From the NCBI GenBank assembly GCA_002841625.1, contig PHAG01000013.1, forward strand, positions 1 through 64,000: a stretch of DNA of 64,000 nt, written 5' to 3'. Shown piece by piece: positions 27,668-57,823 of this stretch. This DNA is from Firmicutes bacterium HGW-Firmicutes-1. GTDB taxonomy: Bacteria > Bacillota > Clostridia > Lachnospirales > Vallitaleaceae. Position numbers and translations under genes: made by a program. Each line of letters opens with the position of its first letter. Position 1 is the first letter of the stretch. The notes under the pieces are model-generated. The model saw only the letters and a list, made by a program, of their open reading frames with translations. It was not told the origin of the DNA and did no database searches.

Positions 27668-27733
27668 TTGTGATATGTTTCATCGTATCAATCGTTACCT
27701 CAACTGAATTTTAAATATATAATTTCTACCTAG
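27668..27733 (+). other. Degenerate rlmH-type attachment-site scar (copy E)
   Basis: TTGTGATATGTTTCATC followed by GTATCAATCGTTACCTCAA matches the att repeats at 33928 and 36483 but with a one-base deletion in the 22-codon tail, and the complementary strand reads E-T-Y-H-N instead of E-P-Y-H-K. It is the most decayed and leftmost copy, and would mark the left limit of the composite island. Confidence 0.6.
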
Positions 27734-31117: not shown

Positions 31118-31158
31118 TTATGATATGGTTCACCGTGATCAACTAAATACATTTTAAT
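31118..31158 (+). other. rlmH-type attachment-site scar (copy D)
   Basis: TTATGATATGGTTCACC, 15 of 17 identical to the core at the rlmH junction. The complementary strand reads GEPYHK-stop, exactly the end of RlmH. The arm to its right diverges after the first codons (YDMVHRDQ), unlike copies B and C. Confidence 0.7.
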
Positions 31159-33927: not shown

Positions 33928-33994
33928 TATGATATGGTTCATCGTATCAATCGCTACCTCAAAGAAAATTTTGAGTATATTATTTCTATTTAAT
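33928..33994 (+). other. rlmH-type attachment-site scar with recombinase tail (copy C)
   Basis: Core TTATGATATGGTTCATC, 14 of 17 identical to the rlmH junction. On the minus strand it reads DEPYHK-stop. On the plus strand it continues as an open tail of 22 codons, YDMVHRINRYLKENFEYI plus ISI-stop, the same as at copy B with a few substitutions. This is read as a left-end att scar of an earlier element. Confidence 0.8.
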
Positions 33995-36482: not shown

Positions 36483-36549
36483 TTATGATACGGTTCACCG
36501 TATCAATCGTTACCTCAAACTGAACTTTGAATATATTATTTCTATTTAA
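36483..36549 (+). other. Left attachment site of the 20.9-kb element (copy B), with recombinase tail
   Basis: Core TTATGATACGGTTCACC (36483-36499) differs at one base of 17 from the rlmH junction at 57348-57364. On the minus strand it reads GEPYHK-stop (the RlmH C-terminus). On the plus strand it is followed by an open tail ending at 36549, TVHRINRYLKLNFEYIISI-stop. The core with different right arms is what site-specific integration at rlmH leaves at the distal end. Confidence 0.85.
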
Positions 36550-37234: not shown

Positions 37235-37939
37235 CTAATACCACTTGAAATTATACCCATTCCCAATATTAACAATATTATTTTCTTTTGCAAATTGCAT
37301 ATCTTGGATGGTTCCAATAATATTATTAATATACTTATACTTTCTCCAATCCCATTTATGACTATTTATAATGTCTCTACAACATACTTGCCTTATAAGT
37401 TGTGACGGGAAAATATCATTCAGATAAATTTCCTTTATATCCATATATTCATAATAAATATAAGATTGCATTCCACCATAAAACTCTATATCCAGAGGAA
37501 TATATTCATCAACAAATAATGTTTCAAAATTATAACTTTTTATAGTATTAGCTATATTTATATTACTAGGCACTAGATGCAAATGGAAATGTTCCACACA
37601 ACACGCACTCCTACCTTCACTAGAAATAGTTCCGTGCTCGAACATTATTGTTGATTTCCCATATATATCCTTTATAACTGATTTAATTTGCTCTATGACA
37701 TAATTTAATTCAACTAATAAATCAGTTGATAACTTAATTCCAGATTGATAATGGCGCTTTGAAATAATCAATAAATATCCCTTGACAAAAGCGCCTAATG
37801 TTGGCAATACCAAAAAATTATTTGATTCAAAAATTATTCGATTATTTCTATATGGTATTTCGTTCCTTAAATATTTATCAAAATAATTTGTTTCAGACTC
37901 AAACATGTTTATTTCTGCACAAATACTACAATCATCCAT
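37235..37939 (-). CDS. HIT-family nucleotide hydrolase/transferase-like protein (distal gene)
   Basis: 234 residues. A CSIC pair at the N-terminus (DDCSICAE) resembles the zinc pair of HIT hydrolases. The active-site motif CVEHFHLHLVP (H-x-H-x-H) is preceded by the family opening FVKGYLLIISKRHY. The C-terminal 90 residues (from about 145, YNFETLFVDEYIP) are an extension not seen in typical Hint proteins. HIT enzymes act on nucleoside phosphoramidates, dinucleoside polyphosphates or adenylylated DNA. Last gene of the eight-gene operon, 49 bases after the second HIT gene. Confidence 0.85.
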   Translation of the reverse strand: MDDCSICAEINMFESETNYFDKYLRNEIPYRNNRIIFESNNFLVLPTLGAFVKGYLLIISKRHYQSGIKLSTDLLVELNYVIEQIKSVIKDIYGKSTIMFEHGTISSEGRSACCVEHFHLHLVPSNINIANTIKSYNFETLFVDEYIPLDIEFYGGMQSYIYYEYMDIKEIYLNDIFPSQLIRQVCCRDIINSHKWDWRKYKYINNIIGTIQDMQFAKENNIVNIGNGYNFKWY

Positions 37940-37988
37940 AACTATCTCTCCATTATTAAATTAATACTCTTTGCTATTAATAGGTTGA

Positions 37989-38408
37989 CTATTTATACTT
38001 ATATTTACTTTTAAACACTGGAACTTTGTGCCAATATGATCCTTTATGAGGAATTATATTTCGCACCCCCCCTTCAAGACATTTAACATCACCTTTATAT
38101 CTAGGTATTAGATGTATATGAACATGGTCTAAAGTTTGGCCAGCGTATTTTCCGACATTTATTCCAATATTGAATCCATCAGGATTAAATTCTTTACAAA
38201 TAATCTGTTTCATTTCTCTGATTAAGCTAAACATCGACTGAACATCTTGTTCCATACTCAAAAAATAATCCCCGTAGTGTCTTTTGGGTACTATTAATGC
38301 ATGCCCAACACTTATTGGAAACTCATCATATATTGCAAAAGCAAATTCATTCTCTATTACAACATTTTCTCTACTTTTTATGTACAAATCACAAAAATAA
38401 CAATGCAT
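37989..38408 (-). CDS. HIT-family protein (Hint/Fhit-like)
   Basis: 139 residues with N-terminal CYFC pair, GHALIVPKRHYGDYF, and the complete histidine triad TLDHVHIHLIPRYKGD, matching canonical HIT hydrolases. AGGGGGT precedes the ATG. It sits between the phosphoribosyltransferase and the second HIT gene, 31 bases after the former, and is certainly co-transcribed. Predicted activity: hydrolysis of nucleotide-linked phosphates; substrate in this operon unknown. Confidence 0.9.
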   Translation of the reverse strand: MHCYFCDLYIKSRENVVIENEFAFAIYDEFPISVGHALIVPKRHYGDYFLSMEQDVQSMFSLIREMKQIICKEFNPDGFNIGINVGKYAGQTLDHVHIHLIPRYKGDVKCLEGGVRNIIPHKGSYWHKVPVFKSKYKYK

Positions 38409-38439
38409 TCTTCTGCTACCCCCTGCATAAAACTAGCAA

Positions 38440-39381
38440 TTATTTAACACCAACCCTTACTATCTTTTCAATTTCTTCATCATTTAACTGGATAATATAA
38501 TTAGGAATAATATTATTATCATTCAGCCTTTCAACACCATTATAATCATTCCTATTCAGTAAACAAAAGAATCCAAATATATGCATAGAGTCAGGTAACA
38601 ATCCCTTTGTTTCAATTATTTGATTTCCTGTAACTAAAACATCGTTAACTATAATCACTTTATCTTTTACATCCAATTTACCATGCCAATATTTATCAGC
38701 AAATATTTGAGGGGAACTTTGAGCATGAACAAACGGTTTTTTTAATATAGAGGCAACCTTACAACCAAATAATAAATTACCATCAATTGGTATTATAACT
38801 TTTGTAACCTCATTTATTGATTCTCCTAATATTTTAAGAATATCCTTAGCGAGCATATCACATAATTCATATGAAAGTTGACATAATCCTATTTGTTCAT
38901 TTTTGATTCTATTCTCATTACTCAATGGTGCGACAAACATTAAATCATGAAAGTCTATAAAATACTTTACCTTTTTGTAAAGTATATTTTCCAATGCTTG
39001 TTGATTAATCAGGCACAACTCGCTAATACATATTTGTTTTAATTTTTTTTCAATGCTATTTGCTTTAACATCACCATCGTTTTCCACCTGTAACTTATAC
39101 AATGCATATCTTAATTTGAACATTTTATCTTGATTTAAATTCAACATAGAAAAAACGCTATTAATAAAAAGTTCCTCGTTCTTGTTAATATAGTTAGAAT
39201 TTGTTTCAAAAAAAATGCCTAAATCTCTTCGTAACTCTTGTTGCCTTTTTTTTAACGCCCATTTAGTGTATACAGGTACTGGAAAGTTATACTTATCTAC
39301 CAAATCAAGTATTCCTACAATCGTTAAAAACCCAATTGTTAAATATAATCCCAAGTCACCAATTATTCCTAATATTTTCAT
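38440..39381 (-). CDS. Membrane-anchored PRTase-like (orotate-phosphoribosyltransferase-type) protein
   Basis: 313 residues. The N-terminal hydrophobic helix (about 4-26) is followed by a charged helical region (30-140). The C-terminal half (about 150-300) resembles type I PRTases: a substrate/loop segment with IIPIDGNLLFGCKVASIL, YWHGKLDVKDKVIIVNDVLVTG, where VIIVNDVLVTGNQ is the PRPP-binding motif (usually D-D/E-D; here N-D). An N-D change in the acidic pair may reduce or alter catalysis. The ATG at 39381 follows GAGGTGA. Membrane attachment is unusual for a PRTase and is reminiscent of an effector design. Confidence 0.7.
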   Translation of the reverse strand: MKILGIIGDLGLYLTIGFLTIVGILDLVDKYNFPVPVYTKWALKKRQQELRRDLGIFFETNSNYINKNEELFINSVFSMLNLNQDKMFKLRYALYKLQVENDGDVKANSIEKKLKQICISELCLINQQALENILYKKVKYFIDFHDLMFVAPLSNENRIKNEQIGLCQLSYELCDMLAKDILKILGESINEVTKVIIPIDGNLLFGCKVASILKKPFVHAQSSPQIFADKYWHGKLDVKDKVIIVNDVLVTGNQIIETKGLLPDSMHIFGFFCLLNRNDYNGVERLNDNNIIPNYIIQLNDEEIEKIVRVGVK

Positions 39382-39421
39382 ACTCTCATTCACCTCATCC
39401 CTATATGTTTATACTATAATA

Positions 39422-40042
39422 TTACCTTATGAATTCATCCAAATTAAAATCTTTATCTTTACTAAAAAAGCTAACCATTAGTTCGTAAACTGATTTGTAA
39501 ATATTTGCTACCATCGGATCGTTTTTAACTTCTTTAGCCATTTCTAAAATCGTTATCCCCTCGGCTTTTATTTTACAATCGTCCTTTATGTCAACTAGCA
39601 GCATAAACCTATTAAAAAGGGCTTTGATTAGCGTACTGCTATTAAATTCCTCATTTACTTTTACTTCATAAAATAACTTAATTGCACTATTATAATTAAA
39701 TAACGCTAACTCATTGTATTTGAAATAATTATAAGTAACAGCTAAATTCATTAATGCAATACCTTTTTGTTCATTATACTCATCTTCAACTTGAAAATTA
39801 TTCTCTACAATTTCTATTGCTTTAATATTATTTTTAATAGAATTATTGAAATCTCCAAGCTTACGATAAATTACTGATTTATTTTGAAAAGCTTTAATCA
39901 ACACAGAAACTGCTTCCTCTTCAACTGCTTCCTCTATTAAATTATTAAGCTTCATAAGGGCTATTTCATATTCTTCAACAGCCATTGCTTCCTTAACATC
40001 ATAAAAAACATCTTCATAATACAAATTATTCATCAACTCCAT
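39422..40042 (-). CDS. TPR-repeat helical protein
   Basis: About 206 residues built of helical pairs with tetratricopeptide-like spacing: YEIALMKLNNLIEEA, FNNSIKNNIKAIEIVENN, KGIALMNLAVTYNYFKYNELALFNYNSAIKLF. No enzymatic motif. It overlaps the ThyX-like gene's end by 17 bases (translational coupling), and exact start is uncertain (in-frame ATGs at 40042 and 40033). A partner-binding role in the operon is probable. TPR proteins are frequent partners or fusions of CHAT proteases, one of which heads this operon. Confidence 0.7.
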   Translation of the reverse strand: MELMNNLYYEDVFYDVKEAMAVEEYEIALMKLNNLIEEAVEEEAVSVLIKAFQNKSVIYRKLGDFNNSIKNNIKAIEIVENNFQVEDEYNEQKGIALMNLAVTYNYFKYNELALFNYNSAIKLFYEVKVNEEFNSSTLIKALFNRFMLLVDIKDDCKIKAEGITILEMAKEVKNDPMVANIYKSVYELMVSFFSKDKDFNLDEFIR

Positions 40043-41399
40043 CAATTAAATTTTTAATTTCTTTTGCTTTCCCACAGGAAAATTTTCCTTCTCTACAAAT
40101 ACCACCTGTATAACACGATGGTCCTGCAAATTTACCTAAAATTTTAAAGTTATCTTTTAAAAGTCTAATTATAGACAATGATAGTTCTTGGATTTCCCAT
40201 TGTGCCCTAAAACAAGAGCGTAATTCTAGAAAATGTAATAATTCTCGATAATTCATAGTTGTCATTACATCAATTAAATTACCACTCAAACATAAGTAAA
40301 TTAAGTCTGATTCATCAATATTATTATCCACTAAAAAACTAATGATTTGTTTGTGTTGTTCTAACGCATTTTTATACTTTTCTAGTATCTTTTTGTTCTG
40401 TCTAATTGTATCAGGCATAATAAATTTCATTTTATCAAATGTCGTTAATAGGTCGGGTATAATTATTGACTGCATTCTGTGTCTTACCAGATGCGTTAAT
40501 CCAGCTAAAGAAATATTAGATATATTAAAGGTGAATGTAATTTGTTCCAATTCTCTCTTCTTCTCTTTTTTTACAGCCCTATTAATAAGTTCCATTTTAT
40601 AAGTCTCGTTATTACTAACTAAGGTTTTCATTTCTCGATACGACATTACCGTTTCATTTAACATTTCTGCAATTGCAATAATTTCTTCAGGGTTTTGAGT
40701 ATAAGAGCATAATTCACATTCGATATTTTCATATGAAATATTGTCAAACTCTTTCTTAATACTATCTTTATTGATTTTTTTGATACCCTCTTTGTAAATT
40801 GTTTCTTTATTTATGATACTCGGATAAATAGAATTTAATTGTTCAAGTAAGCTATTGCCAATTTCGATTATTTCATTGTATCTACTATTAAGAGCTCGTT
40901 TAATTATCAAAGTTGCTTCGCGAGCATTAACTGTACAATAAAAATTGCTCTTAAACCCATATGGCAATATAAACCTTGCATCTTCTTTCGGTATACCTTC
41001 ATTAACCATATCCCCATATAAACCAAATAACATGTCCATGTGATTAATATACTTGCTTTTAAACTCAGCATCATATTTATCAAAATTAGGTATATTATAT
41101 CCCATGTCTGTAAATTCAACATATCTACGGGATTTGACTGTAAATGAAGCTAATCTAAATTCAATCATAAATTGTTCAACAAATGCTGATACATCTTCGA
41201 ATGCGAGGTTAAATATGGCATGTTCAATTAATGAATTATGACCAAGCTGTAATACCTTTTTTATTAAGTCCCTATCTTTATCAATCGGATTCTGTCTATT
41301 GAAAATTTCTAGCGCTGAACCTTTTGTAGTTGATATCCGCGCTGAAGCGGCAACAATTGTCTCTGCATTTTGATTTGTAGAAATAACTTTTACTGGCAT
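40026..41399 (-). CDS. Double-domain ThyX-like flavin-dependent thymidylate synthase homologue
   Basis: 457 residues, two ThyX-like halves. First half: HNSLIEHAIFNLAFEDVSAFVEQF then EFRLASFTVKSRRYVEF (residues 80-96), the SxxxxSxRY part of the ThyX signature but with the preceding RHR degraded to E-F-R, and NAREATLIIKRALNSRY. Second half: LTHLVRHRMQSIIIPD (RHR at 306-308) with the other part missing, and NYRELLHFLELRSCFRAQWEI. Canonical ThyX is about 220-250 residues. The RHR motif and the SxxxxSxRY motif are thus split between halves. It could methylate dUMP or a related pyrimidine nucleotide, or be a repurposed fold. Confidence 0.75.
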   Translation of the reverse strand: MPVKVISTNQNAETIVAASARISTTKGSALEIFNRQNPIDKDRDLIKKVLQLGHNSLIEHAIFNLAFEDVSAFVEQFMIEFRLASFTVKSRRYVEFTDMGYNIPNFDKYDAEFKSKYINHMDMLFGLYGDMVNEGIPKEDARFILPYGFKSNFYCTVNAREATLIIKRALNSRYNEIIEIGNSLLEQLNSIYPSIINKETIYKEGIKKINKDSIKKEFDNISYENIECELCSYTQNPEEIIAIAEMLNETVMSYREMKTLVSNNETYKMELINRAVKKEKKRELEQITFTFNISNISLAGLTHLVRHRMQSIIIPDLLTTFDKMKFIMPDTIRQNKKILEKYKNALEQHKQIISFLVDNNIDESDLIYLCLSGNLIDVMTTMNYRELLHFLELRSCFRAQWEIQELSLSIIRLLKDNFKILGKFAGPSCYTGGICREGKFSCGKAKEIKNLIDGVDE

Positions 41400-41542
41400 A
41401 TTAATCTCCTAAGAATTGAATATTAAAATCAAAGGTATTACTTAGCAGTAACCCCTTTATTAGTATGTACTATTGTAGTATAACAATTGTCATCAATGTT
41501 TACAATACCCTATAATCAATCACACAAAATATACTCCTCAAC

Positions 41543-42013
41543 TCATAAACTCCTAAACTTAATATCTATATCTTCTATATCTGAGGAAAACTTTTTATAC
41601 TCAACATCAGCTGAATCAAAAAGAATTTTTGCTGTTTTTACACTCTCTCTATTCATTTGTTCATCTTTAAGATAAACTACTTTACTTATACCCGCTTGAA
41701 TTAATACTTTAGCACATTCATGACACGGAAATTCAACTACATATAACACGGCATGTAATGTGCTTTTGCCACTACAATTTATTAAAGCGCTTGTTTCCGC
41801 ATGACAAACATAACCATACTTTGTCTCCCATAATTTTCCTGTCTTTCCCCATGAAAAATTATCAGTTTTACACCTTTTAGGAAAATCATTATACCCTGTC
41901 GCAATAATATCCCCTTCTACATTGACAATACAAGCACCTACTTTCGTATTAGGGTCATGACTTAAATTGGATACTAGTATAGCTACTCCCATAAAACAAT
42001 CTTCTTTCTCCAT
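41543..42013 (-). CDS. dCMP/cytidine-deaminase-like zinc enzyme
   Basis: 156 residues with the deaminase zinc motif HAE (H71-A-E73 in CHAETSAL) and PCHEC (P96-C97...C100), and the dCMP-deaminase opening GVAILVSNLSHDPNTKVGACIV. The ATG at 42013 follows AAGGAGCG; the longer frame has no site. Family activity: hydrolytic deamination of dCMP to dUMP (or a related pyrimidine). Placed between a MazG-like and a ThyX-like gene, the three could act in series on pyrimidine nucleotides. Confidence 0.88.
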   Translation of the reverse strand: MEKEDCFMGVAILVSNLSHDPNTKVGACIVNVEGDIIATGYNDFPKRCKTDNFSWGKTGKLWETKYGYVCHAETSALINCSGKSTLHAVLYVVEFPCHECAKVLIQAGISKVVYLKDEQMNRESVKTAKILFDSADVEYKKFSSDIEDIDIKFRSL

Positions 42014-42057
42014 TAATTCGCTCCTTAATCCAGTAATTACTAACAACTATGTCAATA

Positions 42058-42396
42058 TTACTTATCAGCACTCTTATTAACAACATTTTCCAAAAACACT
42101 CTTCTTTTGAAGCCTCCACGCTCCTCAATCTTTTCTTTACGAACCTTTTCAACCGCCTCCATAGAAATCCCCTGTACTTCAATGATTGTATAAAAAACCT
42201 CCAATATATCAGCAAGTTCTTCAATTGATTTATCATTAATCCATTCATTACACTCTTCAAGCAATTTTTGTCCAAGTATCTCTTTATACTCACCCTCATC
42301 TAATATGTGGAAATTTGCCACTTCACCATTCTTTCTAATTATTTCTGGTATTTTATCTCTTACTAGTTTATTGTAAAAAACACAATTATTTCCCAT
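42058..42396 (-). CDS. MazG-like nucleoside-triphosphate pyrophosphohydrolase
   Basis: 112 residues starting YNKLVRDKIPEIIRKNG, the usual opening of the small phosphoribosyl-ATP-pyrophosphohydrolase-like/MazG family. The Mg-binding pattern E48-x-x-E51 ... E60-x-x-D63 is present in LLEECNEW and EELADILEV. It removes pyrophosphate from (d)NTPs. It is 45 bases upstream of the deaminase gene in the transcription order and 222 bases downstream of the CHAT gene. Nucleotide clearance or supply of monophosphate for the next enzymes is inferred. Confidence 0.85.
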   Translation of the reverse strand: MGNNCVFYNKLVRDKIPEIIRKNGEVANFHILDEGEYKEILGQKLLEECNEWINDKSIEELADILEVFYTIIEVQGISMEAVEKVRKEKIEERGGFKRRVFLENVVNKSADK

Positions 42397-42618
42397 GTAT
42401 TAACTACCTCTCATTTCAGTTTCATTTTTGTTTCTATTACTATGTGAACACTTATCTACATTAGAAAAAAGAATTTGAACTCTATCATTAAAAACCCCCC
42501 CTGGGATAAGACTTATAATAACCTATAATATAGAATTCGAGAAAGCCATTATTAAATTTTCCACCTCAACTTGGTCTTTTACAAACAATAATTATCAATC
42601 CTTAATTAAATTTTTATT

Positions 42619-44562
42619 CTAATCTGAAAGTTTACCATCAAGATAAAAGCAAGTTCGCGCTGCTCTAGCTAAAAGTTCAACCATACCAGGCAGTTCATAA
42701 TATGGTACTAATTCCATACATATAAACTGAATTATTTTTTTGGTATTTAATAATACATCCTGAGTATTTTCTTTTTGACTTTTCTCCAACCATTGATATA
42801 GATACCTTGATAACTCTATAATGACTTTCTTTTTTGAAAGCATTTTTGATACTTTTAAGCACGAGAAATGTAATCCACAAAATAAATATATATCTTTATA
42901 CTTTTCATCCTCAATAGAATTAATCATCTTATTCGCTGTATTAATTATATTATCATTAAATGCATTCCTATAAAATATATTAGCCGAACAAGCAGCAATC
43001 TCATCTCCAATTTTCCACAAAGTGCCTATATATGCTCTACAACCACTTGCAATTAATTGATCTGAAAATTCAGGCCACGAATTACATGTATTATTGAATA
43101 TAAACGGATAGTTTTGAGAAGCTAATACATGAAATTGTCCTTGATGTATGCTGTCATAGCATCTAACATGACAAGATGTCTCTATTAAATCAATTTTTTC
43201 CCTTGTTATTTTTGAGTTTTCATCCTCACATCTAATAGAATTAAACATATCAGTATAAATATATTTAGGATAATTTTCATTATCAAGCTCATCACTATCC
43301 CAAATTAAATTATCAAAAAACTTAAATATTTTTTTACTTACTACATTAACATAGTCCTTCTCCTGTTCATCTAGGGAAAACCCTACTACTTCTTCATATT
43401 CAATTGTGTGGTTTATACCCATTCGATCAGTAAATTCATGTACCACATAATAACCATCTATTTGTCCTCCATGACTACAAATATGTAATATATCATATGG
43501 ATAATGACTTCCATAGTAACTGAAAGCTTCCACTTTTGCATACTTATTAATGAGCTTTTTTACAAAAAATCTAGCATCTAACAAACTATTACATACTTCT
43601 ATATGCTCTTTTTTTGTATAGTTTAAATCTGATAATTCTGGAGAAAAAACAATGGCACTATCGAAGTTATTGTTAAATTGTTCATAAATAATATTATTAT
43701 ACAGAAATATGTCAAGTGTATTTGATCTTATAACATGAGAACATGGGATGACTGAATTAAAAAAAACACCATATGGTATCCCGTCACTAAAAAAAGTTAA
43801 ATACTCATAATCAGCCACATTAATGTCTTCAAATATATTTTCTATGTATGTTCTTATTCTGAGATACGCAGTATGTGACTGATCTCTTTTCCATTTTATA
43901 AAGTTACTTCTAATTTCTTTAATTTCAGATGGATTAAAGTGATTTATTAATTTTACATCAGCATTTACGGAGTAAGCGTAATTAAGTATTATAATGTCCA
44001 ATACATCGTTCTTAGATTCTAAAACAATAAGTCCTTTCTCTTTATCTTCTCTTTTAATATAATCACTAATTCTCGGTGCAGCATTGTCAACAACTAGAAG
44101 TTTATTATTATCTTTTGCATGCAAAAGTCCCTTTGATATATCAGCTCTATTACAATTAAAAAATCCTTTAAACTGTTTATTCAGAAATTTTAATTTATCA
44201 TTTATTTCATTTATACTATGTATATCAAAAAATGTAACCTTCCAATACTTTTCTAATTTAAGATATTTCTTTTGCTCTTCACTTAAACCTACCAGTATGA
44301 TTCTGCTACACCTTGCTCTTGCAAGAGAGTTCATCATTTGCACTGTTGATTTTTTTATAACAATACTTGGAAAATAATTATCACTATAAATGTCTTCAAC
44401 TTCTTCAAATTTACTACTTATCACTGGCATTTCAAAAATAGGTAAATATTTATTTGGTTCATTAACATAGCAGCAAATTATCGAAAGGAATTCTATATCA
44501 ACATCACTAGATGCAATACAAGCTAAATCGACCATTAAATCAGGTGGCAAAAACTTCTTCAT
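42619..44562 (-). CDS. CHAT-domain (caspase-like) protein
   Basis: 647 residues. The last third matches CHAT proteases: YDILHICSHGG with catalytic His 364, IFNNTCNSWPEF with catalytic Cys 493, then SGCRAYIGTLWKIGDEIAA and FYRNAF, the closing helices typical of CHAT. The first about 240 residues are an alpha/beta region that I do not recognise, and the middle (about 250-340) links both. No TPR in this protein; a separate TPR gene is in the operon. The ATG at 44562 follows AAGGAG. First gene of the operon, with its own promoter. CHAT proteins are known in bacterial immunity; the target here is unknown. Confidence 0.78.
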   Translation of the reverse strand: MKKFLPPDLMVDLACIASSDVDIEFLSIICCYVNEPNKYLPIFEMPVISSKFEEVEDIYSDNYFPSIVIKKSTVQMMNSLARARCSRIILVGLSEEQKKYLKLEKYWKVTFFDIHSINEINDKLKFLNKQFKGFFNCNRADISKGLLHAKDNNKLLVVDNAAPRISDYIKREDKEKGLIVLESKNDVLDIIILNYAYSVNADVKLINHFNPSEIKEIRSNFIKWKRDQSHTAYLRIRTYIENIFEDINVADYEYLTFFSDGIPYGVFFNSVIPCSHVIRSNTLDIFLYNNIIYEQFNNNFDSAIVFSPELSDLNYTKKEHIEVCNSLLDARFFVKKLINKYAKVEAFSYYGSHYPYDILHICSHGGQIDGYYVVHEFTDRMGINHTIEYEEVVGFSLDEQEKDYVNVVSKKIFKFFDNLIWDSDELDNENYPKYIYTDMFNSIRCEDENSKITREKIDLIETSCHVRCYDSIHQGQFHVLASQNYPFIFNNTCNSWPEFSDQLIASGCRAYIGTLWKIGDEIAACSANIFYRNAFNDNIINTANKMINSIEDEKYKDIYLFCGLHFSCLKVSKMLSKKKVIIELSRYLYQWLEKSQKENTQDVLLNTKKIIQFICMELVPYYELPGMVELLARAARTCFYLDGKLSD

Positions 44563-44875
44563 TATATGAATTCTCCTTATCACAAATTGCATGAAAACTA
44601 TACTTTCTCATTCCTTATATTATATTCTTATTATCTCGTGAGTACAATTGTCTTTTTATGATACTAAAAAATAATTTTATGATCACTAAAACTAAGAATC
44701 AACCCTACTTTAGTTTTTGATTTTGATTTCTATTTCTATCCGCCAGTGTTGGTTATATTTACTCCACTCCTACTAAAAAAGAAAATAATTTTTATAAATA
44801 CTTGAAATCTTAATTAATCATTTTCTATGCTCCCTTTAAGCTGTTAAAACAGCAATATATTAAAGGAGATATGAA
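44563..44875. other. Divergent intergenic region
   Basis: 312 bases between the CHAT operon and the rep gene. It contains the CHAT promoter (44619-44647) and a short palindrome GCTGTTAAAACAGC (44840-44853) ahead of the rep ribosome site, which might belong to a replication origin or operator. Confidence 0.5.
44619..44647 (-). promoter_or_regulatory. Promoter of the CHAT operon
   Basis: On the minus strand TTGTAC, 17 bases, TATAAT (44642-44647 and 44619-44624), about 60 bases before the CHAT start codon. Confidence 0.7.
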
Positions 44876-45922
44876 ATGTTTGATACAGTAAAAATTTACA
44901 AGAAAATAAAACTTAATACCTCTATTTTAGCTGCCTGGAAACTTCATAAAGGAAAAAAAATAATTAAATATGTCAAAGAATTAAAGGGAATTACATTCAC
45001 ATATTATCCTGAGACAATAAACAATCCCGTTAAAAATTTACTTATGGCTAGCTTCTCTATGCCAACCTTAATTTACGGTTCTAATGTTTTTATGGCTTAT
45101 GAAAGTGATATTCCGAAATTACAAAAAAGTTTTCATTTAATCTCTAAAGAAATATTTGGTTTTGAGTTGCCTAATATTTTGTATTGGCAGGTTAGTAGAT
45201 TAGATTACTGTTATAATTTCTATGTTGAACAAGTTGACTTAATCCAAAAATATATAAAAATATTAAATAAATGTAAGGTTCCCTACTTCAAAAATATATC
45301 CTATGATACAACTGCATTTTTTTATAATACATCACATTCTTTTAAATTTTATAATAAATTCGAAGAGATAAAATCCAAACTTAACAACGATAATGAATCT
45401 ACTGATGAAAATATTGAGATTATAAAACCCTTCTCAGAAAACTTATTTAGATTTGAAGCTTCAATTCGGAGGAGAAAACTTTTAGAACTTTTTAGTTCTA
45501 ATAAGAAAGGAGGTGTAATCTTAAAAGATATATTAACAGATGCCCAGGCAGTAAAAATCATGGAAAAATACTTGCAAAAAATTAAAATTCAGAATCCATT
45601 AGACCTAGTAAAAGCTAAAAAAATAATTCAAGCTTCTATTATGAGACCAACATCAAAAGCAAAATTGTTAGTTTTTATAGACTATCTTAGCAGATATGGA
45701 AGTATGAAAGCAAAAGAAAAGTATTTAAACAATTATCGCACTAGAATAAAAGACTTAAAACAACTTGGATTAGAGTCTTTTTTTATTTCAGACTTTACAG
45801 ATGGTGTAATAAACTTCAAGTTAACATTGAAAACAGAGTTGCCCCAACAATTTCCTAGTAAAAATGTCTTTCAAATATTATTATCTATAAGATATGTCTT
45901 TATCTATGAAGATGGGGGCTAG
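44876..45922 (+). CDS. Phage/plasmid replication protein, gene II/X type
   Basis: 348 residues, opening MFDTVKI and continuing with SMPTLIYGSN, WQVSRLDYCYNF and FRFEASIRRRKLLELF, phrases shared by gene II/X (Phage_CRI and Phage_X) replication initiators of filamentous phage and rolling-circle plasmids. These nick at the double-strand origin. AAAGGAG precedes the ATG. It is next to a ribbon-helix-helix gene, a broken plasmid-type gene and a resolvase. Indicates an absorbed plasmid or phage segment inside the island. Confidence 0.75.
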   Translation: MFDTVKIYKKIKLNTSILAAWKLHKGKKIIKYVKELKGITFTYYPETINNPVKNLLMASFSMPTLIYGSNVFMAYESDIPKLQKSFHLISKEIFGFELPNILYWQVSRLDYCYNFYVEQVDLIQKYIKILNKCKVPYFKNISYDTTAFFYNTSHSFKFYNKFEEIKSKLNNDNESTDENIEIIKPFSENLFRFEASIRRRKLLELFSSNKKGGVILKDILTDAQAVKIMEKYLQKIKIQNPLDLVKAKKIIQASIMRPTSKAKLLVFIDYLSRYGSMKAKEKYLNNYRTRIKDLKQLGLESFFISDFTDGVINFKLTLKTELPQQFPSKNVFQILLSIRYVFIYEDGG

Positions 45923-48027: not shown

Positions 48028-48618
48028 ATGAATTATGCGTATCAAAGAGTTTCGACTATTAAACAGGACGAAAAACGGCAAGAAATATCACTAAATCAAT
48101 TTAAAATCGATAAGAGATATGTAGATAAATTATCTGGGAAAAATAAAGATAGGCCTCAGCTCAATAAATTAATGCTCGATACTACACCTGGAGATCAAAT
48201 TTATATTGAAAGCATCTCAAGGCTTGGGCGAAATGTCGATGATCTTAGATATCTTTGTAAATATTTTTCTGAAAAAGATGTGGTAGTTCATTTTATTAAA
48301 GAAGGTTTTAATACGGAAGGTAATGTATATAAATTTATGCTCACGATCTTAGGTGCAGTCGCCGAAATGGAACGAGAACAGATTGTTGAACGCGTGAATG
48401 AAGGTATCCAAAAAGCAAAAAAATATGGAACTAGGTCTGGAAAGCCAATAGGCAGACCTGGCGTTACTCTCCCCTCTAGTTTTAGTAAATATTACCAAAA
48501 ATTACAATCAAAAGAAATTACATCGGCTGAGTTTGCAAGATTAATCGAAGTGAGTAGGCCAACGCTCTACCGATACATAAAATTATTTGAACAAAAAAAA
48601 GCTATTATAAAGGAATAA
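48028..48618 (+). CDS. Serine resolvase/invertase
   Basis: 196 residues. Catalytic Ser 9 (YQRVST), the motif YIESISRLGRNVDDL, AEMEREQIVERVNEG and a C-terminal Hin-like helix-turn-helix (SAEFARLIEVSRPTLYRYIK). This is a small resolvase of the Tn3/Hin group, needed for multimer resolution or inversion. The start follows GGGAGTG. A long inverted repeat lies in the promoter region upstream. Separate from the large integrase at 55708. Confidence 0.92.
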   Translation: MNYAYQRVSTIKQDEKRQEISLNQFKIDKRYVDKLSGKNKDRPQLNKLMLDTTPGDQIYIESISRLGRNVDDLRYLCKYFSEKDVVVHFIKEGFNTEGNVYKFMLTILGAVAEMEREQIVERVNEGIQKAKKYGTRSGKPIGRPGVTLPSSFSKYYQKLQSKEITSAEFARLIEVSRPTLYRYIKLFEQKKAIIKE

Positions 48619-51305: not shown

Positions 51306-52280
51306 TCACTTGATATCCGCCCTTTTTAAAGTCTTTATAATTTCCTTTGCAGTATGCCACATCATCACTGGAGGAATAGCATTACCCAATGCTCTGTATT
51401 GCGTTGATTCTGACTCTGCTAAAATAAAGGTCTCGGGAAACGATTGGATTCTTGCTACTTCCCTTGGGGTAAACCTTCTATATCTATCTCCTACTAATAG
51501 AACAGGGTCCGTACTATTCAAAGATACCTTTGCTAAATGAGAACCAACTGTATTACAAGGTTTTGATACATCCTGGGCCCTTCCTTTATTCATACTTTCT
51601 CTTTTTTTCATCATTCCTTGTACTGCTTTTTCACTAAAAAAATACTTTTCATCAACTTTTGATTCTATTACTCTTAATAACGGTATAAACTCTTCTTCGT
51701 TGTGGCTTTCAATTGGAAAATTAAACTCTATATTTAAATCATTTCTAAATCCAACGATAAAAACTCTTTCCCTCTTTTGGGGAACACCATAACTGGCCGA
51801 TTTCAATAATTTATAATAAACATCATATCCACTACTTTTGAACTCCTCAATAATTAAAGGAAATGCTCTCCCTTTGTTAGCAGATAATAGTCCCTTCACA
51901 TTCTCAGCTATAAAAGCCTTTGGCTGTTTTTCTTTTAATATTCTACACATCTCAAAGAACAGCTTACCTCTCTCATCTTTTACACCAAGTCGTTTTGGAT
52001 TTTGTGCTATAATTGAAAATGACTGACAAGGAAATCCTCCTGTAAGTATGTCGAATTCTGGGATGTCAGATGTTAAAATTTCTCTTATATCTCTGTTATC
52101 TGGTTTTATATCAAAATTTAATTCAAATAGTTTACAAGCATTATCATCAATATCATTTGCATAAACTATTTCCACATCATTTTGATCATAGTATTTGCCT
52201 AAAAACTCAAAGTTTCCTAATAATCCTACATCAGTTCCTCCACATCCACAAAATAAAGATGCAACTCTTAATTTTCCCAT
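51306..52280 (-). CDS. DNA cytosine-5 methyltransferase (M1)
   Basis: 324 residues with the m5C motifs in order: I (ASLFCGCGGTDVGLLG), IV (GGFPCQSFS; catalytic Cys 85), VI (AFIAENVKGLL), VIII (PQKRERVFIVG), IX/X (RRFTPREVARIQSFPETF and YRALGNAIPPVM). The recognition region between VIII and IX is short. Its start overlaps the stop of the restriction gene by 13 bases. It protects DNA by methylating C5 of cytosine in the target site; specificity is not readable. Confidence 0.94.
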   Translation of the reverse strand: MGKLRVASLFCGCGGTDVGLLGNFEFLGKYYDQNDVEIVYANDIDDNACKLFELNFDIKPDNRDIREILTSDIPEFDILTGGFPCQSFSIIAQNPKRLGVKDERGKLFFEMCRILKEKQPKAFIAENVKGLLSANKGRAFPLIIEEFKSSGYDVYYKLLKSASYGVPQKRERVFIVGFRNDLNIEFNFPIESHNEEEFIPLLRVIESKVDEKYFFSEKAVQGMMKKRESMNKGRAQDVSKPCNTVGSHLAKVSLNSTDPVLLVGDRYRRFTPREVARIQSFPETFILAESESTQYRALGNAIPPVMMWHTAKEIIKTLKRADIK

Positions 52281-53680
52281 GATAACAACTCCTCGAATGC
52301 ACCTGAATCATTTGGGTTGAAGGTTATATCTGCTCCATCCCTTGGTACCATTTGTAGTATATCTTGCTTGTATAATCCGACTGGATCTTGCATAACAAAT
52401 AATTTTCTTTCATACTTACTAACCAATAATCTATACACAAAATACCTATCTCTGATGCTTTCAGCGGTATTCCATTCATTTGTAGTTAAATGAATTTTGT
52501 TAAATTGTAAAGGCTTAGAACTTATAGTAGTCTTAACCTCAATATACCTTTTTCTAGCATCTAACTCAACTGATTGAATATCATATCCAACAGCAAACTG
52601 GGTAGGTATTCGCTTAATCAAATGTATTAGTTCCTCTCTTCCTCCTATTTTTACTCTCTCACATTCATGTCCATGGACCAACCCTTCCCCAATATCTCCA
52701 ATATCCTTTGCTACTAATAATTCTCCAGAACCTAATTTTTGTTTTATTAATTCAAGGCTCGACTTTTTCAGTTCATCATATTCTTGGGGATTATTAGAAA
52801 TGAACGCTAATATGTCTGTTTGGAAATCCGTATCAGAAACATCACGATTCACATATTCAAACCAGCTTTTCTGGAACGAACTAATTTGAGCCAAATCAGC
52901 TGTTCTACTGTGAATCATCTTGTCATAAATGGTAAACCAGTGGGTAGAATTTACAAACTTTAATATGGCTTCACTTTCCAAATTATTTATGTAATAGTTT
53001 TTCCCATCATGCGTTACAAGTAAATTTGCAATTTCCATATAATCTATAATATCACCCGCACAACGAACTACATCCCCAGTCTGATCGTACTCAATCTCAT
53101 GGTCCCTATTTTCATTTATCCTCAACCAAGTTAATGATACATCTTCATTATCTCTTATGCACCTTAGATCATTAAAAATACAATGTGTAACTTCCGCTTT
53201 TGTAACACCAACTCTATTACCACTTTCTTTCTCGGCATATTGTAACAATTTTAAAATATACTGAGCTGGCTTAAACCTAATTCCAGCTTCAATCATTTTG
53301 TATGTTTCATGAGGTTTAATATGACCACCAGGATATTGGAAATTGAAAAGATATACTTTAAAACTCTCAACTAAATCTTGACTAGTTGAAAGTTCAATTG
53401 CTCTTAACCCAGGTTTTGTAATTCCATTTTCTGTAATTATAAATCCAAATAAAGCAGAAATCTCAGTTCTCCAATTGTTAATAGTTTTATTTTTTCTATG
53501 CATATTACCTGGAAATAATTTAATTGCCGCATTTACCCTGTTAGCAAATTCGTCATAGGGCAACTCTGTCAATTTAGTTATTTCTGTAGCCATATATATT
53601 AATACATTTTCGATATCACCTTTGAACCTTGGCCGAATATGATGCAATCGATAGTAATAATCATTTGGAATGTTATACAT
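52268..53680 (-). CDS. Restriction endonuclease-like protein (PD-(D/E)XK, DUF3883-type C-terminus)
   Basis: 470 residues flanked by two m5C methyltransferase genes. The C-terminal part (about 335-470) has a DUF3883/NO VEIN-like region with a nuclease-type core: GYDIQSVELDARKRYIEVKTT, i.e. D...E-x-K with the core E-V-K. The N-terminal 300 residues are helical with a likely DNA-recognition role. Two methyltransferases with one nuclease would be expected for a type II/IIS enzyme with an asymmetric site. Not a recognised named enzyme. Confidence 0.75.
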   Translation of the reverse strand: MYNIPNDYYYRLHHIRPRFKGDIENVLIYMATEITKLTELPYDEFANRVNAAIKLFPGNMHRKNKTINNWRTEISALFGFIITENGITKPGLRAIELSTSQDLVESFKVYLFNFQYPGGHIKPHETYKMIEAGIRFKPAQYILKLLQYAEKESGNRVGVTKAEVTHCIFNDLRCIRDNEDVSLTWLRINENRDHEIEYDQTGDVVRCAGDIIDYMEIANLLVTHDGKNYYINNLESEAILKFVNSTHWFTIYDKMIHSRTADLAQISSFQKSWFEYVNRDVSDTDFQTDILAFISNNPQEYDELKKSSLELIKQKLGSGELLVAKDIGDIGEGLVHGHECERVKIGGREELIHLIKRIPTQFAVGYDIQSVELDARKRYIEVKTTISSKPLQFNKIHLTTNEWNTAESIRDRYFVYRLLVSKYERKLFVMQDPVGLYKQDILQMVPRDGADITFNPNDSGAFEELLSWEN

Positions 53681-53694
53681 AATATCCCTACTTT

Positions 53695-54744
53695 CTACCT
53701 CAAATATTTTATTAAATCCTCTGCTATGCGTTGAGCCATTAATGGAGGAACAGCATTTCCTACTTGTCTAAACTGCTGGGTCTTATTTCCCCAAAAAACA
53801 AAGATATCAGGAAAGGATTGAATCCTTGCACATTCCCTTACAGTTGGTACTCGATTGTATTTATAATGAAAATGATGTCTATGCCCTGTGTCAATTGTTG
53901 GTGCTGGTTTATTACTACCAAACCTTGTCCATGCAACATTAAAATTCCTAGTACTTCTAAATTCATCAGGCAGACTTTTGTAATTGCATCCATCTGGAAC
54001 CAGCGAAATAATATTCTGAACTTTCTCTGAATGTCTTGCAGCTACATGATTATATACATTTTCAGAATTTTTACGCATTAACTTTTGGTACTCATTTTGT
54101 GGCAAGGTATAGTAACCATCAACTTCTTTCCCCAATTCAAATTCCAATGGAAATAAATCGGATATTGCCATTTCACATGTAACTTTATTATCAAACTCCT
54201 TTGGAAATATAAATTCTTTGTCTTTTAAACCAACAAAAAATACTCTTTTTCGGTTTTGGGGAACACCATAATCTGCTGCACAAAGAATTTTAAAGCTAAC
54301 TATGTAACCCATATCTGCAAATTTTTTTAAAATATTTTCTTTAATTTCACCTTTGAAAAGTCCAACTAAACCAGGAACATTTTCAATAACGAACGCTTGA
54401 GGTCTTATCTCATCTACTAATCTAATATATGATAAATACAATTTATTTCTAGGATCTTCAAATAGTCTATTCCCTGAAAGTGACATACCTTGACAGGGTG
54501 GACCTCCTATGATCAAATCGATTTTTTTATTACCTATTAATGGCTTGATGTTTTCTTGATATGAAATCTGCGTGATATCTCCACAAATATGCTTAGATCC
54601 TTTATGGTTTAGTTCAAATGTTTTAAGCGCTGCAGCATCATTATCAATTCCTAATAATACCTTAAATCCTGCTTTTTTAAACCCATAAGACAACCCCCCA
54701 CATCCGCAAAACAAATCTATTGCTGTAAAAACTCTTTTTCCCAT
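53695..54744 (-). CDS. DNA cytosine-5 methyltransferase (M2)
   Basis: 349 residues from the ATG at 54744 (the longer frame reads into the preceding gene). Motifs: I (AIDLFCGCGGLSYGFKKAG), IV (IGGPPCQGMSLSG; catalytic Cys 84), VI (AFVIENVPGL), VIII (PQNRKRVFFVGL), IX/X (RRVPTVRECARIQSFPDIF...FRQVGNAVPPLM). Distinct from M1 in the target-recognition region, so the two probably methylate opposite strands or different sites. Confidence 0.94.
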   Translation of the reverse strand: MGKRVFTAIDLFCGCGGLSYGFKKAGFKVLLGIDNDAAALKTFELNHKGSKHICGDITQISYQENIKPLIGNKKIDLIIGGPPCQGMSLSGNRLFEDPRNKLYLSYIRLVDEIRPQAFVIENVPGLVGLFKGEIKENILKKFADMGYIVSFKILCAADYGVPQNRKRVFFVGLKDKEFIFPKEFDNKVTCEMAISDLFPLEFELGKEVDGYYTLPQNEYQKLMRKNSENVYNHVAARHSEKVQNIISLVPDGCNYKSLPDEFRSTRNFNVAWTRFGSNKPAPTIDTGHRHHFHYKYNRVPTVRECARIQSFPDIFVFWGNKTQQFRQVGNAVPPLMAQRIAEDLIKYLR

Positions 54745-54751
54745 ATTTAGT

Positions 54752-54922
54752 CTAAAGCCTCTTCTTTCTTGAGTCTTGTGGTTTCTCCGCATCTCTTGGT
54801 ATTGCCCAATTTTCTCCCAACTTGAATACTCCTTGGATTCTATTATCAGAACAAAGAATTTGTACTCTCCGTTGAGTAATACCCCATTTTTTTGCAGCTT
54901 CGCGAGCCGTGATATATTTCAC
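54752..54922 (-). CDS. Small helix-turn-helix protein, likely RM controller
   Basis: 56 residues. Excisionase/MerR-like helix-turn-helix: ITAREAAKKWGITQRRVQIL, wing NRIQGVFKLGENWAIP, basic tail. GTG start at 54922, with GGAAGGTG about 5-6 bases upstream. First gene of the RM operon, so probably the controller that delays nuclease expression after entry. Confidence 0.75.
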   Translation of the reverse strand: MKYITAREAAKKWGITQRRVQILCSDNRIQGVFKLGENWAIPRDAEKPQDSRKKRL

Positions 54923-55357: not shown

Positions 55358-55678
55358 ATGGACAGAATAGATTTAATTTTAAGTAATAGAGAGGAAAAAC
55401 ACGATCTGAATCATTTTTTAGATTCATTAATAGCTCTAATTATTTATGTATCGAGTATAACAGATGCTTCACATGAATTAAATGAATTAGATGATTTAGA
55501 TGAGCTAAATGAATTAGATGATTTAGATGAGCTAAATGAATTAGATGAATTAGACGAGATAAATGAGTTAGATCAGTTAGATGCGTTAGTTGAGCTAGCT
55601 GAGTTAGATCAGACAGATAAGTTATATGAAGGAGTTTCACATTATGTGGAACTCTTTAACTACTGTGTTATAATATAA
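55358..55678 (+). CDS. Acidic Leu/Asp/Glu repeat protein
   Basis: 106 residues. The middle (about 40-90) consists of a 9-residue repeat N-E-L-D-D-L-D-E-L and shorter ELD/DxL units, encoded by 27-base near-identical repeats from 55476. The N-terminal 40 residues include a hydrophobic helix (FLDSLIALIIYVSSI), and the end is KLYEGVSHYVELFNYCVII. Very negative charge. GGGGGAG precedes the ATG. It sits 30 bases before the recombinase gene and is probably transcribed with it. No known family; DNA-mimic or recombination-directionality roles are only possibilities. Confidence 0.6.
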   Translation: MDRIDLILSNREEKHDLNHFLDSLIALIIYVSSITDASHELNELDDLDELNELDDLDELNELDELDEINELDQLDALVELAELDQTDKLYEGVSHYVELFNYCVII

Positions 55679-55707: not shown

Positions 55708-57372
55708 ATGAGTAAATTTATGGATGAATTTAAAAAAGATGTTAAAGACACCGTTGACAAAGAAATAAAAACCGCATATATTTATACTCGCGTTTCAACC
55801 GAAGAACAGACAGAAGGTTATTCTCTTGAAGCCCAGGTTGATGAAATTGAAGATTATTGTAGGTATCGAAAAATTAGCATTGAGAAAAAATATTGTGATG
55901 CAGGTATTACGGGAACATCTATCGATAAACGAGAAGCTTTAAAGGATATGTTGCGAGATATTAAAGTTAATAATATAGATGCCATAATAATATGGAAATT
56001 ATCTAGAATCAGCAGAAATATGGGCGATTTAGTTGATATAGTAAAGCATCTCCAAAAGAATGATGTTGTATTAATTAGTATCACAGATAAAATAGATACA
56101 AGCACTAATATGGGACGATTTTTTTTCTATTTAGTAGGAGCGTTTGCTGAAATGGAACGAGAAAACATAGTTGTACAATCAAGACTTGGGATGAAAAAGC
56201 GAGCAGAAGAAGGAAAGTGGAATGGTGGAAAACCTGCTATTGGTTATGATTATTCATCTGAAAAAGGACTTATTATAAATGAGAAAGAAAAACAAACAGT
56301 TCTTAAAATATTCGATATGTATACAAAACAAGGCTGTGGGTACTCAAGAATTTGTAGGTTTTTAAATAATAATCTAGACGAATTTTCCACCAAAAACAAT
56401 AAAAGTTGGAGTTATGCCACTATAAAAACTATACTTGATAACCCCGTTTATGCGGGATATATACGATGGGGGAAACAACTAAATTGGGAAAAGGAGCGTA
56501 GAAAGGGTACTACAAATAATTACACGCTCTCAGAAGGCATTCATGAATCAATAATTTCTGAAGAACTTTGGGAACTTACAAGAGAAATTCGCAAAGGGAA
56601 AAAAGCTCCTGAAAAAATCACAAATCTTCATTACCTATTATCAGGTTTAGCAAAATGTCCAGTCTGCGGAGCAAGTATGGTGAGTCATAGGACTAAAGGT
56701 GCCCTAAAAAATGGTGGTATAGTATACTATAGATATTATGCGTGTTCACAATGGGCCAATAAAAAAGCTATTTGCAAACCAAATCTCGTCAAAGCAGCTA
56801 CCTTAGAAGATCAAGTAATAAAAAGAATTTCTAGATTTATTAATTCACCAAATTTATATGAAATACTAAATAAACGCCTCTCGAATTCATCTGATACAAA
56901 AGAATTGGAGGCTCAATTAAAATTAACTGAACAGAAGCTTAAAAAAAATATTGGTGCAGAAGATAAATATTATGAATATGCGGCCGATGAAGAAATATTA
57001 AAAACACTTAAAATAGAAAAAATAAAGGAGAAATTAGTAGCGCTAAATAACGAACAAATGAAATTAATTAGCGAAAAAAATGAGATAACTAAACAAATCA
57101 ATAATATTAGTAATAGTAAAATGGATATTGAGAAAATCACTTTAGTATTACAGAATTTTGAAAATCTATTTTCAATAGCCACCTTTGAAATACAAAAAAC
57201 ATTGATTCATTCATTAATAAAAGAAATTAAAATTAAGAGAAGTGACCGTATAGAGGAACGACTTTCTGAGGAAATTATTCTATGTTTAAATGACATAAAT
57301 TTAATGAATTTTCATACTGAGGAAGATCAAACCCATTTTGAGGTCACTTATGATACGGCTCACCTAAGTTAA
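55708..57372 (+). CDS. Large serine recombinase (integrase) spanning the rlmH junction
   Basis: 554 residues. Resolvase catalytic domain with Ser 30 (YTRVSTEEQTEGYSLEAQ), SRISRNMGDLVDI, AEMERENI; the recombinase domain, then a zinc-ribbon with CPVCGASMVSH...YYACSQW...C (the Cys pair is near residues 319-351), and a long coiled coil (about 390-490). The last 9 codons cross the att core into rlmH, ending YDTAHLS-stop; the original tail is apparently left at 36483. Responsible for insertion at rlmH. GAGGTG precedes the ATG. Overlaps the convergent rlmH end by 29 bases. Confidence 0.93.
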   Translation: MSKFMDEFKKDVKDTVDKEIKTAYIYTRVSTEEQTEGYSLEAQVDEIEDYCRYRKISIEKKYCDAGITGTSIDKREALKDMLRDIKVNNIDAIIIWKLSRISRNMGDLVDIVKHLQKNDVVLISITDKIDTSTNMGRFFFYLVGAFAEMERENIVVQSRLGMKKRAEEGKWNGGKPAIGYDYSSEKGLIINEKEKQTVLKIFDMYTKQGCGYSRICRFLNNNLDEFSTKNNKSWSYATIKTILDNPVYAGYIRWGKQLNWEKERRKGTTNNYTLSEGIHESIISEELWELTREIRKGKKAPEKITNLHYLLSGLAKCPVCGASMVSHRTKGALKNGGIVYYRYYACSQWANKKAICKPNLVKAATLEDQVIKRISRFINSPNLYEILNKRLSNSSDTKELEAQLKLTEQKLKKNIGAEDKYYEYAADEEILKTLKIEKIKEKLVALNNEQMKLISEKNEITKQINNISNSKMDIEKITLVLQNFENLFSIATFEIQKTLIHSLIKEIKIKRSDRIEERLSEEIILCLNDINLMNFHTEEDQTHFEVTYDTAHLS

Positions 57373-57823
57373 TCCTAAAACACCTATATACCTGCTCTAG
57401 CAAAATGACTCTCATTAATTGATGGGGGAAGGTCATCTTCGAAAAGCTCAACTTTTCATTGCATTGCTGTAAAACTTCGTCAGATAGCCCCAAAGATCCT
57501 CCGATAACGAAAGTTAGATGACCATTTCCTTGAACTCCAAGCTTCTCAATATGACTTGCCAATTCCTCTGAAGATTTGTGGGCACCATCTATTGCAAGGG
57601 CTATCACATAAGAAGAAGGGTTCATATATCTCATTATACGACTACCTTCTCTATTTTTAACTTCTATTTCCTGGGAAATAGACATATTCTCTGGTGCTCT
57701 TTCGTCAGCAAGCTCCACAATGTCTAATTTACAGTATCTACTTAATCTTTTTTCGTATTCCTGTACCGCATTTTTCAAGTAATCTTCCTTTAATTTACCA
57801 ACTGTAATCAATGTAATTTTCAA
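57344..57823 (-). CDS. rlmH: 23S rRNA (pseudouridine1915-N3)-methyltransferase
   Basis: 159 residues, SPOUT methyltransferase. MKITLITVGKLKEDYLKNAVQEYEKRLSRY is the family opening, FVIGGSLGLSDEVL is the SAM-binding turn and the end MRVILLEQVYRCFRINLGEPYHK is the conserved knot C-terminus. Methylates pseudouridine 1915 in helix 69 of 23S rRNA. Its last codons double as the attachment core for a site-specific recombinase, as in staphylococcal SCC elements (orfX). The gene remains intact with a TGA stop supplied at the junction. Confidence 0.96.
   Translation of the reverse strand: MKITLITVGKLKEDYLKNAVQEYEKRLSRYCKLDIVELADERAPENMSISQEIEVKNREGSRIMRYMNPSSYVIALAIDGAHKSSEELASHIEKLGVQGNGHLTFVIGGSLGLSDEVLQQCNEKLSFSKMTFPHQLMRVILLEQVYRCFRINLGEPYHK
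57348..57364. other. Right attachment site (copy A) in rlmH
   Basis: TTATGATACGGCTCACC within the last codons of rlmH (K-H-Y-P-E-G on the complementary strand) and of the recombinase gene on the plus strand. Its 17 bases recur at 36483 with a single change. Confidence 0.85.

Follow-up and report, generated by a model that had tools for sequence, protein, structure and literature searches.

Some integrases carry the attachment (att) site of their element within their own gene. In streptococcal integrative and conjugative elements, the rumA-targeting serine integrases have such a site: integration exchanges the 3' end of the gene, and the excised form differs from the integrated one in length and C-terminus, with a functional difference between the two deemed probable by the authors (PMC4701971, in the portion available). 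The tyrosine integrase of phage Mx8 likewise contains attP in its own gene. Its integration replaces 112 residues by 13 (PMC4701971), and the resulting enzyme is said to have lower activity (PMC4701971) or a modified specificity (PMC6070905). A further paper, in its available part, restricts recombinases that disrupt their own gene to archaea (PMC8371274). Here we analyse a 64,000-nucleotide stretch (the window) at the start of contig PHAG01000013.1 of Firmicutes bacterium HGW-Firmicutes-1 (genome G000, 3.95 Mb; G-numbers denote genomes compared and L-numbers loci). The window appears to hold a 20.9 kb island (36484-57361) resembling the staphylococcal cassette chromosome (SCC), with a single large serine recombinase (LSR) related to CcrB and CcrC that would integrate at the 3' end of rlmH. 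As read from the sequence, the circular form of this island most likely encodes an LSR of 568 residues with its native tail, which integration would shorten to 554.

The recombinase, its attachment site and the parked tail

The features on which this reading depends are as follows.

55708..57372, + strand: LSR, integrated form, 554 aa (Resolvase, Recombinase and Zn_ribbon_recom domains)
57344..57823, - strand: rlmH, the target gene, with its GEPYHK end intact (SPOUT_MTase, E 5.6e-58)
57348..57364, + strand: core of the junction between element and rlmH (rlmH-side att)
57335..57361, + strand: candidate P half-site of attP with the central TC (from the rejoined palindrome, 19/25, and the reading frames)
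36483..36497, + strand: core of the far att junction, the presumed partner end of the 20.9 kb element
36495..36521, + strand: candidate P' half-site (TC + 25 nt), an inverted match to the P half-site
36484..36549, + strand: parked C-terminal tail YDTVHRINRYLKLNFEYIISI-stop, 22 codons including the stop, frame opening at TAT 36484
33928..33993, + strand: second parked tail YDMVHRINRYLKENFEYIISI-stop, from another array element, 22 codons including the stop
27669..27731, + strand: decayed tail copy CDMFHRINRYLN-stop, right limit approximate
31118..31134, + strand: core-like site without a conserved tail, joined palindrome just 6/25

The integrated LSR frame runs through the att core and ends as FEVTYDTAHLS-stop within rlmH (57344-57823), as the sequence-only reading had proposed, and its closing codons, AHLS-stop, are host-derived. 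The segment 57335..57361 is double-coding: it encodes FEVTYDTA of the LSR on the plus strand and the last codons of RlmH, PYHK-stop, on the minus strand. On the plus strand the core TTATGATAYGG is found at 31118, 33927, 36483 and 57348, that is, four matches against 0.36 expected, a number that 0/100 shuffles reached. At 36484 and 33928 the frame continues for 22 codons to a conserved stop, and the two tails share the reading YD(T/M)VHRINRYLK(L/E)NFEYIISI-stop. Joining the LSR end to 36484 yields a single open frame, ...FEVTYDTAHRINRYLKLNFEYIIS(I-stop), of 568 aa. Both the continuation and the uninterrupted longer protein had been claimed from the letters alone, and the translations bear them out. 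The core thus lies within the recombinase open reading frame (ORF), which resumes at the partner end, placing attP in the recombinase's own gene. The sites at 27669, 31118, 33928 and 36484 form a composite array of older cassettes to the left of the element; the first two go beyond what the sequence-only reading had listed.

The window LSR has the domain set of large serine recombinases (Resolvase, Recombinase and zinc-ribbon). Its TRVS motif is conserved in the four LSR sequences compared, with an invariant Ser30 that we take to be the catalytic serine. Among NCBIfam families its best match is CcrB (E 8.4e-83, 278.8 bits), alongside CcrC (E 4.2e-68). Because these scores fall far under the family cut-offs, 900 bits in both cases, we count the enzyme as a relative and not a member: judged by sequence, it is Ccr-related yet distinct, outside CcrA/CcrB/CcrC. 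The element sits at the 3' end of rlmH, the SCC-type target, and not at rumA. An AlphaFold model built on a three-row alignment has a mean pLDDT (predicted local distance difference test) of 48, a quality at which the C-terminus and coiled coil cannot be placed.

To reconstruct attP, the LSR-side half was rejoined to the tail-side half and the palindrome scored as pairs of 25 about the central TC. The score was 19/25 in the window (57349 + 36484) and in G392, 16/25 in G394 (with either tail) and in G701, and 13/25 in G794. Random joins had a mean of 7.0 and a maximum of 17 (n=20,000), attB joins at these loci scored 5-9, and the tail-less site at 31119 scored 6. The core is common to several sites and the array is composite, so the 36484 tail might belong to another array element, the LSR at 57349 having had a different tail. 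Indeed, the ends at 33928 and 27669 likewise give 16/25 with the 57349 end, which weighs against our pairing. On the other hand, no site lies closer than 36484 and none scores higher (19/25), and we regard a wrong partner as improbable. It would hardly alter the conclusion, because the peptides encoded by the window's two intact tails are almost identical.

Tails and recombinase ends in other genomes

A scan of genome contigs with the LSR returned three loci at 62-64% identity, all with LSR 3' ends within rlmH: L009 in Alkalithermobacter (G392, class Clostridia), L010 in Clostridium sp. N3C (G393), a pseudogene, and L011 in a Thermoanaerobacteraceae metagenome-assembled genome (G394), where the LSR is frameshifted. 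Counting the centre genome each time, LSR matches were found in 2/391 genomes of the window's class (to which G320 also belongs), in 6/198 and, at a stricter limit, 3/393 of one order, and in 1/24 and 7/225 genomes in two other searches. Six of the seven LSR loci adjoining rlmH read through the core into it (G000, G392, G393, G394, G701 and G794). The ends so acquired are AHLS-stop (G000), VHHLLS-stop (G392), VPH-stop (the G393 pseudogene), VPPQ-stop (G701) and VPPS-stop (G794), together with ARQHLSYKPCISAPKG-stop in G394, the last fragment of a degraded gene. In the four overlap-type loci that are not pseudogenes the stop falls 4-6 codons past YDT. Homologues that normally stop at a YDTAH-like position had been named as evidence against a native tail; such stops occur solely where the LSR adjoins rlmH, i.e. 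in the integrated state.

Other arrangements are also seen. The G629 LSR (37% identity) lies near the far end of an rlmH-linked region and stops outside the core; in the G468 and G660 arrays the LSR end codons are apparently provided by a neighbouring att end. In G320 the LSR is directed away from rlmH, the core has a central GA, not TC, and the tail is parked at rlmH. The G716 LSR (44% identity) has an end unrelated in sequence, and its integration target was looked for and not found. In a tree of 16 recombinases, excluding the G393 pseudogene, the overlap-type enzymes are clustered (2 changes; 1/500 shuffles as low) without forming one clean clade.

The tails themselves recur at far ends. 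A tail-peptide search of six genomes recovered the window's two copies (E 5.5e-10 and 1.3e-8) and, in G392 (5.3e-7) and G394 (3.2e-4 and 0.006), copies at the elements' far ends; the same search gave none in G320 and a single weak match in G001 (E 0.55). A tail profile added copies in G620 (E 2.6e-15) and G701 (E 9.6e-15). Altogether, seven intact tails from five genomes (two each in G000 and G394, one each in G392, G701 and G620) are identical in length, frame and stop position. In G620 the distance between tail and rlmH is 9 kb, and neither a motif scan of that region nor a genome search at E 1e-80 recognised an LSR; parked tails can flag insertions even without a recognised recombinase. In the 391 class genomes, 39 match the tail profile at E <= 0.05, strongly only in G000. 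The other class matches (best E 4.9e-4) were rejected as chance, having partial profile cover or lying inside long unrelated frames; five of these loci (L030, L031, L033, L036 and L043) were scanned for frames of at least 250 codons. In the order of G393, 3/225 genomes pass E 0.002, the third of which, G800 (E 0.0015), was judged a chance match within a 484-aa frame. A second tail family, RDIQNI(I/V)L.IA, is represented by RIFLRDIQNIILEIA-stop at the far end in G468 and RIISRDIQNIVLVIASS-stop at rlmH in G320. There is also a second rlmH att family, with AAACCGC...GCGGTTT arms flanking the same core, at L149 (G001), L065 (G468) and L027 (G320).

Codon-level constraint was assessed on the seven aligned intact tails with 2000 column shuffles, setting aside site 31119, the decayed copy at 27669 and four tails that do not align (G794, G660, G468 and G320). 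Over codons 1-12, which span the core and the P' half-site, the ratio of non-synonymous to synonymous differences (pN/pS) is 0.94. Over codons 13-21, beyond the 25-nt half-site arm, it falls to 0.28 (P 0.001), and keeping a single tail from each genome leaves it at 0.28 (P 0.002). In an earlier version with six tails the distal pN/pS was 0.27 (codons 13-22) or 0.31 (13-21; P 0.0015); the full 22 codons gave 0.45 (P 0.027). The other frames of the distal block contain stops in 2/7 tails (+1) and 7/7 (+2). These values fit constraint at the DNA level in the half-site and at the protein level beyond it.

The same data bear on a rival explanation, that the tail is only DNA: the P' arm and adjacent att sequence would be open in frame by chance and dispensable for the enzyme. 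DNA constraint predicts just the pN/pS seen over codons 1-12, and in G772 and G629, which have rlmH att sites, the LSR stops outside the att core. The distal block speaks against it, past the arm and with its low pN/pS, as does the stop, kept in place in 7/7 tails while the +2 frame is interrupted in all of them. We consider this explanation unlikely, marginally less so than a wrong partner.

Distant relatives offer a further view of the native C-terminus. An FxFx[IL]xI-like end motif is present in 4/5 of them (L062-L064, L072 and L073) and in 6/6 main-family tails then known; in the background it occurs in 8/1067 ORFs, a set that includes those relatives' loci, and in 45/3804 short frames. 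The motif was picked after the sequences had been seen, so it is weak support and no proof. At L063, L064 and L072 a hairpin and T-run, terminator-like by eye, lie inside the ORF just ahead of the last LSR codons.

Virus contigs gave no LSR relative in a single-protein scan and 60 loci, at <=38% identity, in a scan with a four-row alignment. Relatives in phage and plasmid records were all below 60% identity (23-38% among the matches listed), with the plasmid search extending to 5000 records. In eleven of the virus-contig loci L074-L085 the recombinase ends near a VETVVLL-like motif that resembles the RumA end of G000, HVETCCLLKRL-stop. Eighteen of 55 such pairs are >70% identical before the motif (89-100% over 120 nt), and the next 21-60 nt are only 14-52% identical. 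This 3' divergence is consistent with C-terminal swapping at rumA, for which it is the predicted pattern; a search of three of the records gave no rumA match.

A proposed exchange and its possible consequences

We propose the following sequence of events. The attP would be a near-palindrome of ~50 bp, contained entirely in the 3' end of the recombinase ORF. Recombination at the central TC would detach the last 17 native codons (HRINRYLK..FEYIISI-stop), leaving them parked at the island's far end. The antisense strand of rlmH would then supply the final codons of the integrated gene, and the opposite strand of the same P half-site would provide the PYHK-stop of RlmH. The detached tail would meanwhile be kept under protein-level constraint. 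Taken together, attP within the ORF, tail exchange, restoration of the RlmH end and tail constraint are, on the sequence data, highly probable. That the integrated and circular forms have different C-termini, as first suggested from the window alone, is supported because the tail is conserved beyond the half-site, lies at the far end in relatives and rejoins the LSR end as a near-palindromic attP.

Several observations weigh against this scheme. Neither a circle nor reads across its junction were observed, and the virus, phage and plasmid scans brought up no free form with an intact tail. Far-end sites score 8-14/25 before any joining (one G701 site scores 16), and the attB join beats the attP join in G468 (20 vs 17) and G660 (17 vs 14), showing that these two arrays contain att sites of a second family. 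Over all 21 codons pN/pS is 0.46 (P 0.02), and the distal block comprises nine codons only, with a shuffle that ignores phylogeny. The G794, G660, G468 and G320 tails cannot be aligned to the main tail and have the end motif in 0/4 cases; the G320/G468 pair lacks codon-position bias (4, 3, 5). No tail was found in G393, where the LSR is a pseudogene, by peptide or profile search, and two of the six overlap-type loci (the G393 pseudogene and the G394 frameshift) no longer encode an enzyme. Finally, the LSR of G772 (36% identity, the most distant of the seven rlmH-adjoining loci) ends upstream of the core, and overlap is therefore not required for rlmH targeting.

What the exchange does for the element is a separate matter. 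The 568-aa enzyme made from the circle would be the form built for integration; the 554-aa integrated form would have an altered, probably lower, activity, so that the island stays put; and excision, with a directionality factor, would rebuild the long form. By analogy with Mx8, the arrangement most likely amounts to a compact module of att site and recombinase, with a weakened enzyme in the integrated state. Taken by itself, an altered activity of the truncated form has even chances in our estimate, and that it is pure inference also counts against the scheme. Alternatively, the exchange may be real but neutral for control: both forms would recombine equally well, the tail being kept for stability or expression of the circular form. 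This alternative accepts every step of the exchange and rejects its functional consequence. In its favour, a directionality factor governs serine integrases (PMC5737554), whereas the constraint on the tail's codons implies that it has some function, and lower activity is described for the swapped Mx8 integrase (PMC4701971). We see neutrality as a serious contender, if somewhat short of even odds. A functional state switch, as suggested from the window alone, is plausible. It is doubtful, though, that the tail is a built-in direction control, in which the long enzyme, made only from the circle, could carry out attP x attB recombination and the short form is impaired or has a changed need for the directionality factor. 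If direction control did operate this way, a recombinase in a tandem array could acquire a neighbour's parked tail and change state.

The proposed exchange would matter in other ways too. Database recombinase sequences may have host-derived ends and no native C-terminus because they are taken from integrated copies, a concern when such recombinases serve as genome-engineering tools. Moreover, a function of the swap, thought probable for the rumA integrases (PMC4701971, in the portion available), is now directly testable.

Cargo and comparison with known systems

Within the 20.9 kb element we recognise the following candidate cargo.

51306..54792, - strand: type II restriction-modification cargo, two cytosine methyltransferases either side of a BpuJI_N-type endonuclease
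44876..45922, + strand: replication-protein-like cargo (Phage_CRI)
48028..48618, + strand: small serine recombinase (resolvase/invertase type)

A minus-strand block at 37235-44592 encodes ThyX, phosphoribosyltransferase-like and HIT-like proteins (the latter two judged by eye) and a protein weakly matching CHAT; PADLOC gave no match among the four proteins tested from it. Immediately upstream of the LSR, at 55358-55678, lies a low-complexity ORF with DELNELD-type repeats.

Among described systems, SCC and ECC cassettes with CcrAB/CcrC and rlmH islands of Bacillota share with this element the rlmH 3' end as target, composite arrays and a Ccr-related serine recombinase (PMC6222049 and PMC10061031, in their available parts). 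In contrast, the island described here has a single recombinase at its edge that overlaps attP and scores under the Ccr cut-offs; the accessible portions of the same two papers describe no such overlap. The archaeal 'suicidal' SSV-type integrases also have the att site in the integrase gene, which integration alters (PMC8371274, in part), whereas here the C-terminal tail alone is lost and all three Pfam domains are retained. As in Mx8, attP lies within the integrase gene and the C-terminus is replaced on integration, but Mx8 has a tyrosine integrase, whereas the enzyme that gives up 17 native residues here is a serine recombinase. The rumA type also has att inside its own serine integrase gene and an exchanged C-terminus. 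There the target is rumA and both proteins are changed; here the antisense strand of rlmH is used, and the GEPYHK end of RlmH is preserved. The available portion of PMC4701971, the source on the rumA type, contains no parked-tail record or codon test, both of which are given here.

Own-gene att sites thus occur in bacteria too, according to the rumA, Mx8 and rlmH cases, and the principle is already known from C-terminus exchange in the rumA serine integrases and the Mx8 tyrosine integrase. In the open-access literature searched we found no description of the rlmH version of the swap, and the codon test would be the first evidence known there that a serine recombinase tail attached only before integration is under selection at the protein level. 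The features that look new are the use of antisense rlmH by a Ccr-like recombinase, the record left by parked tails and the evidence of selection on the tail.
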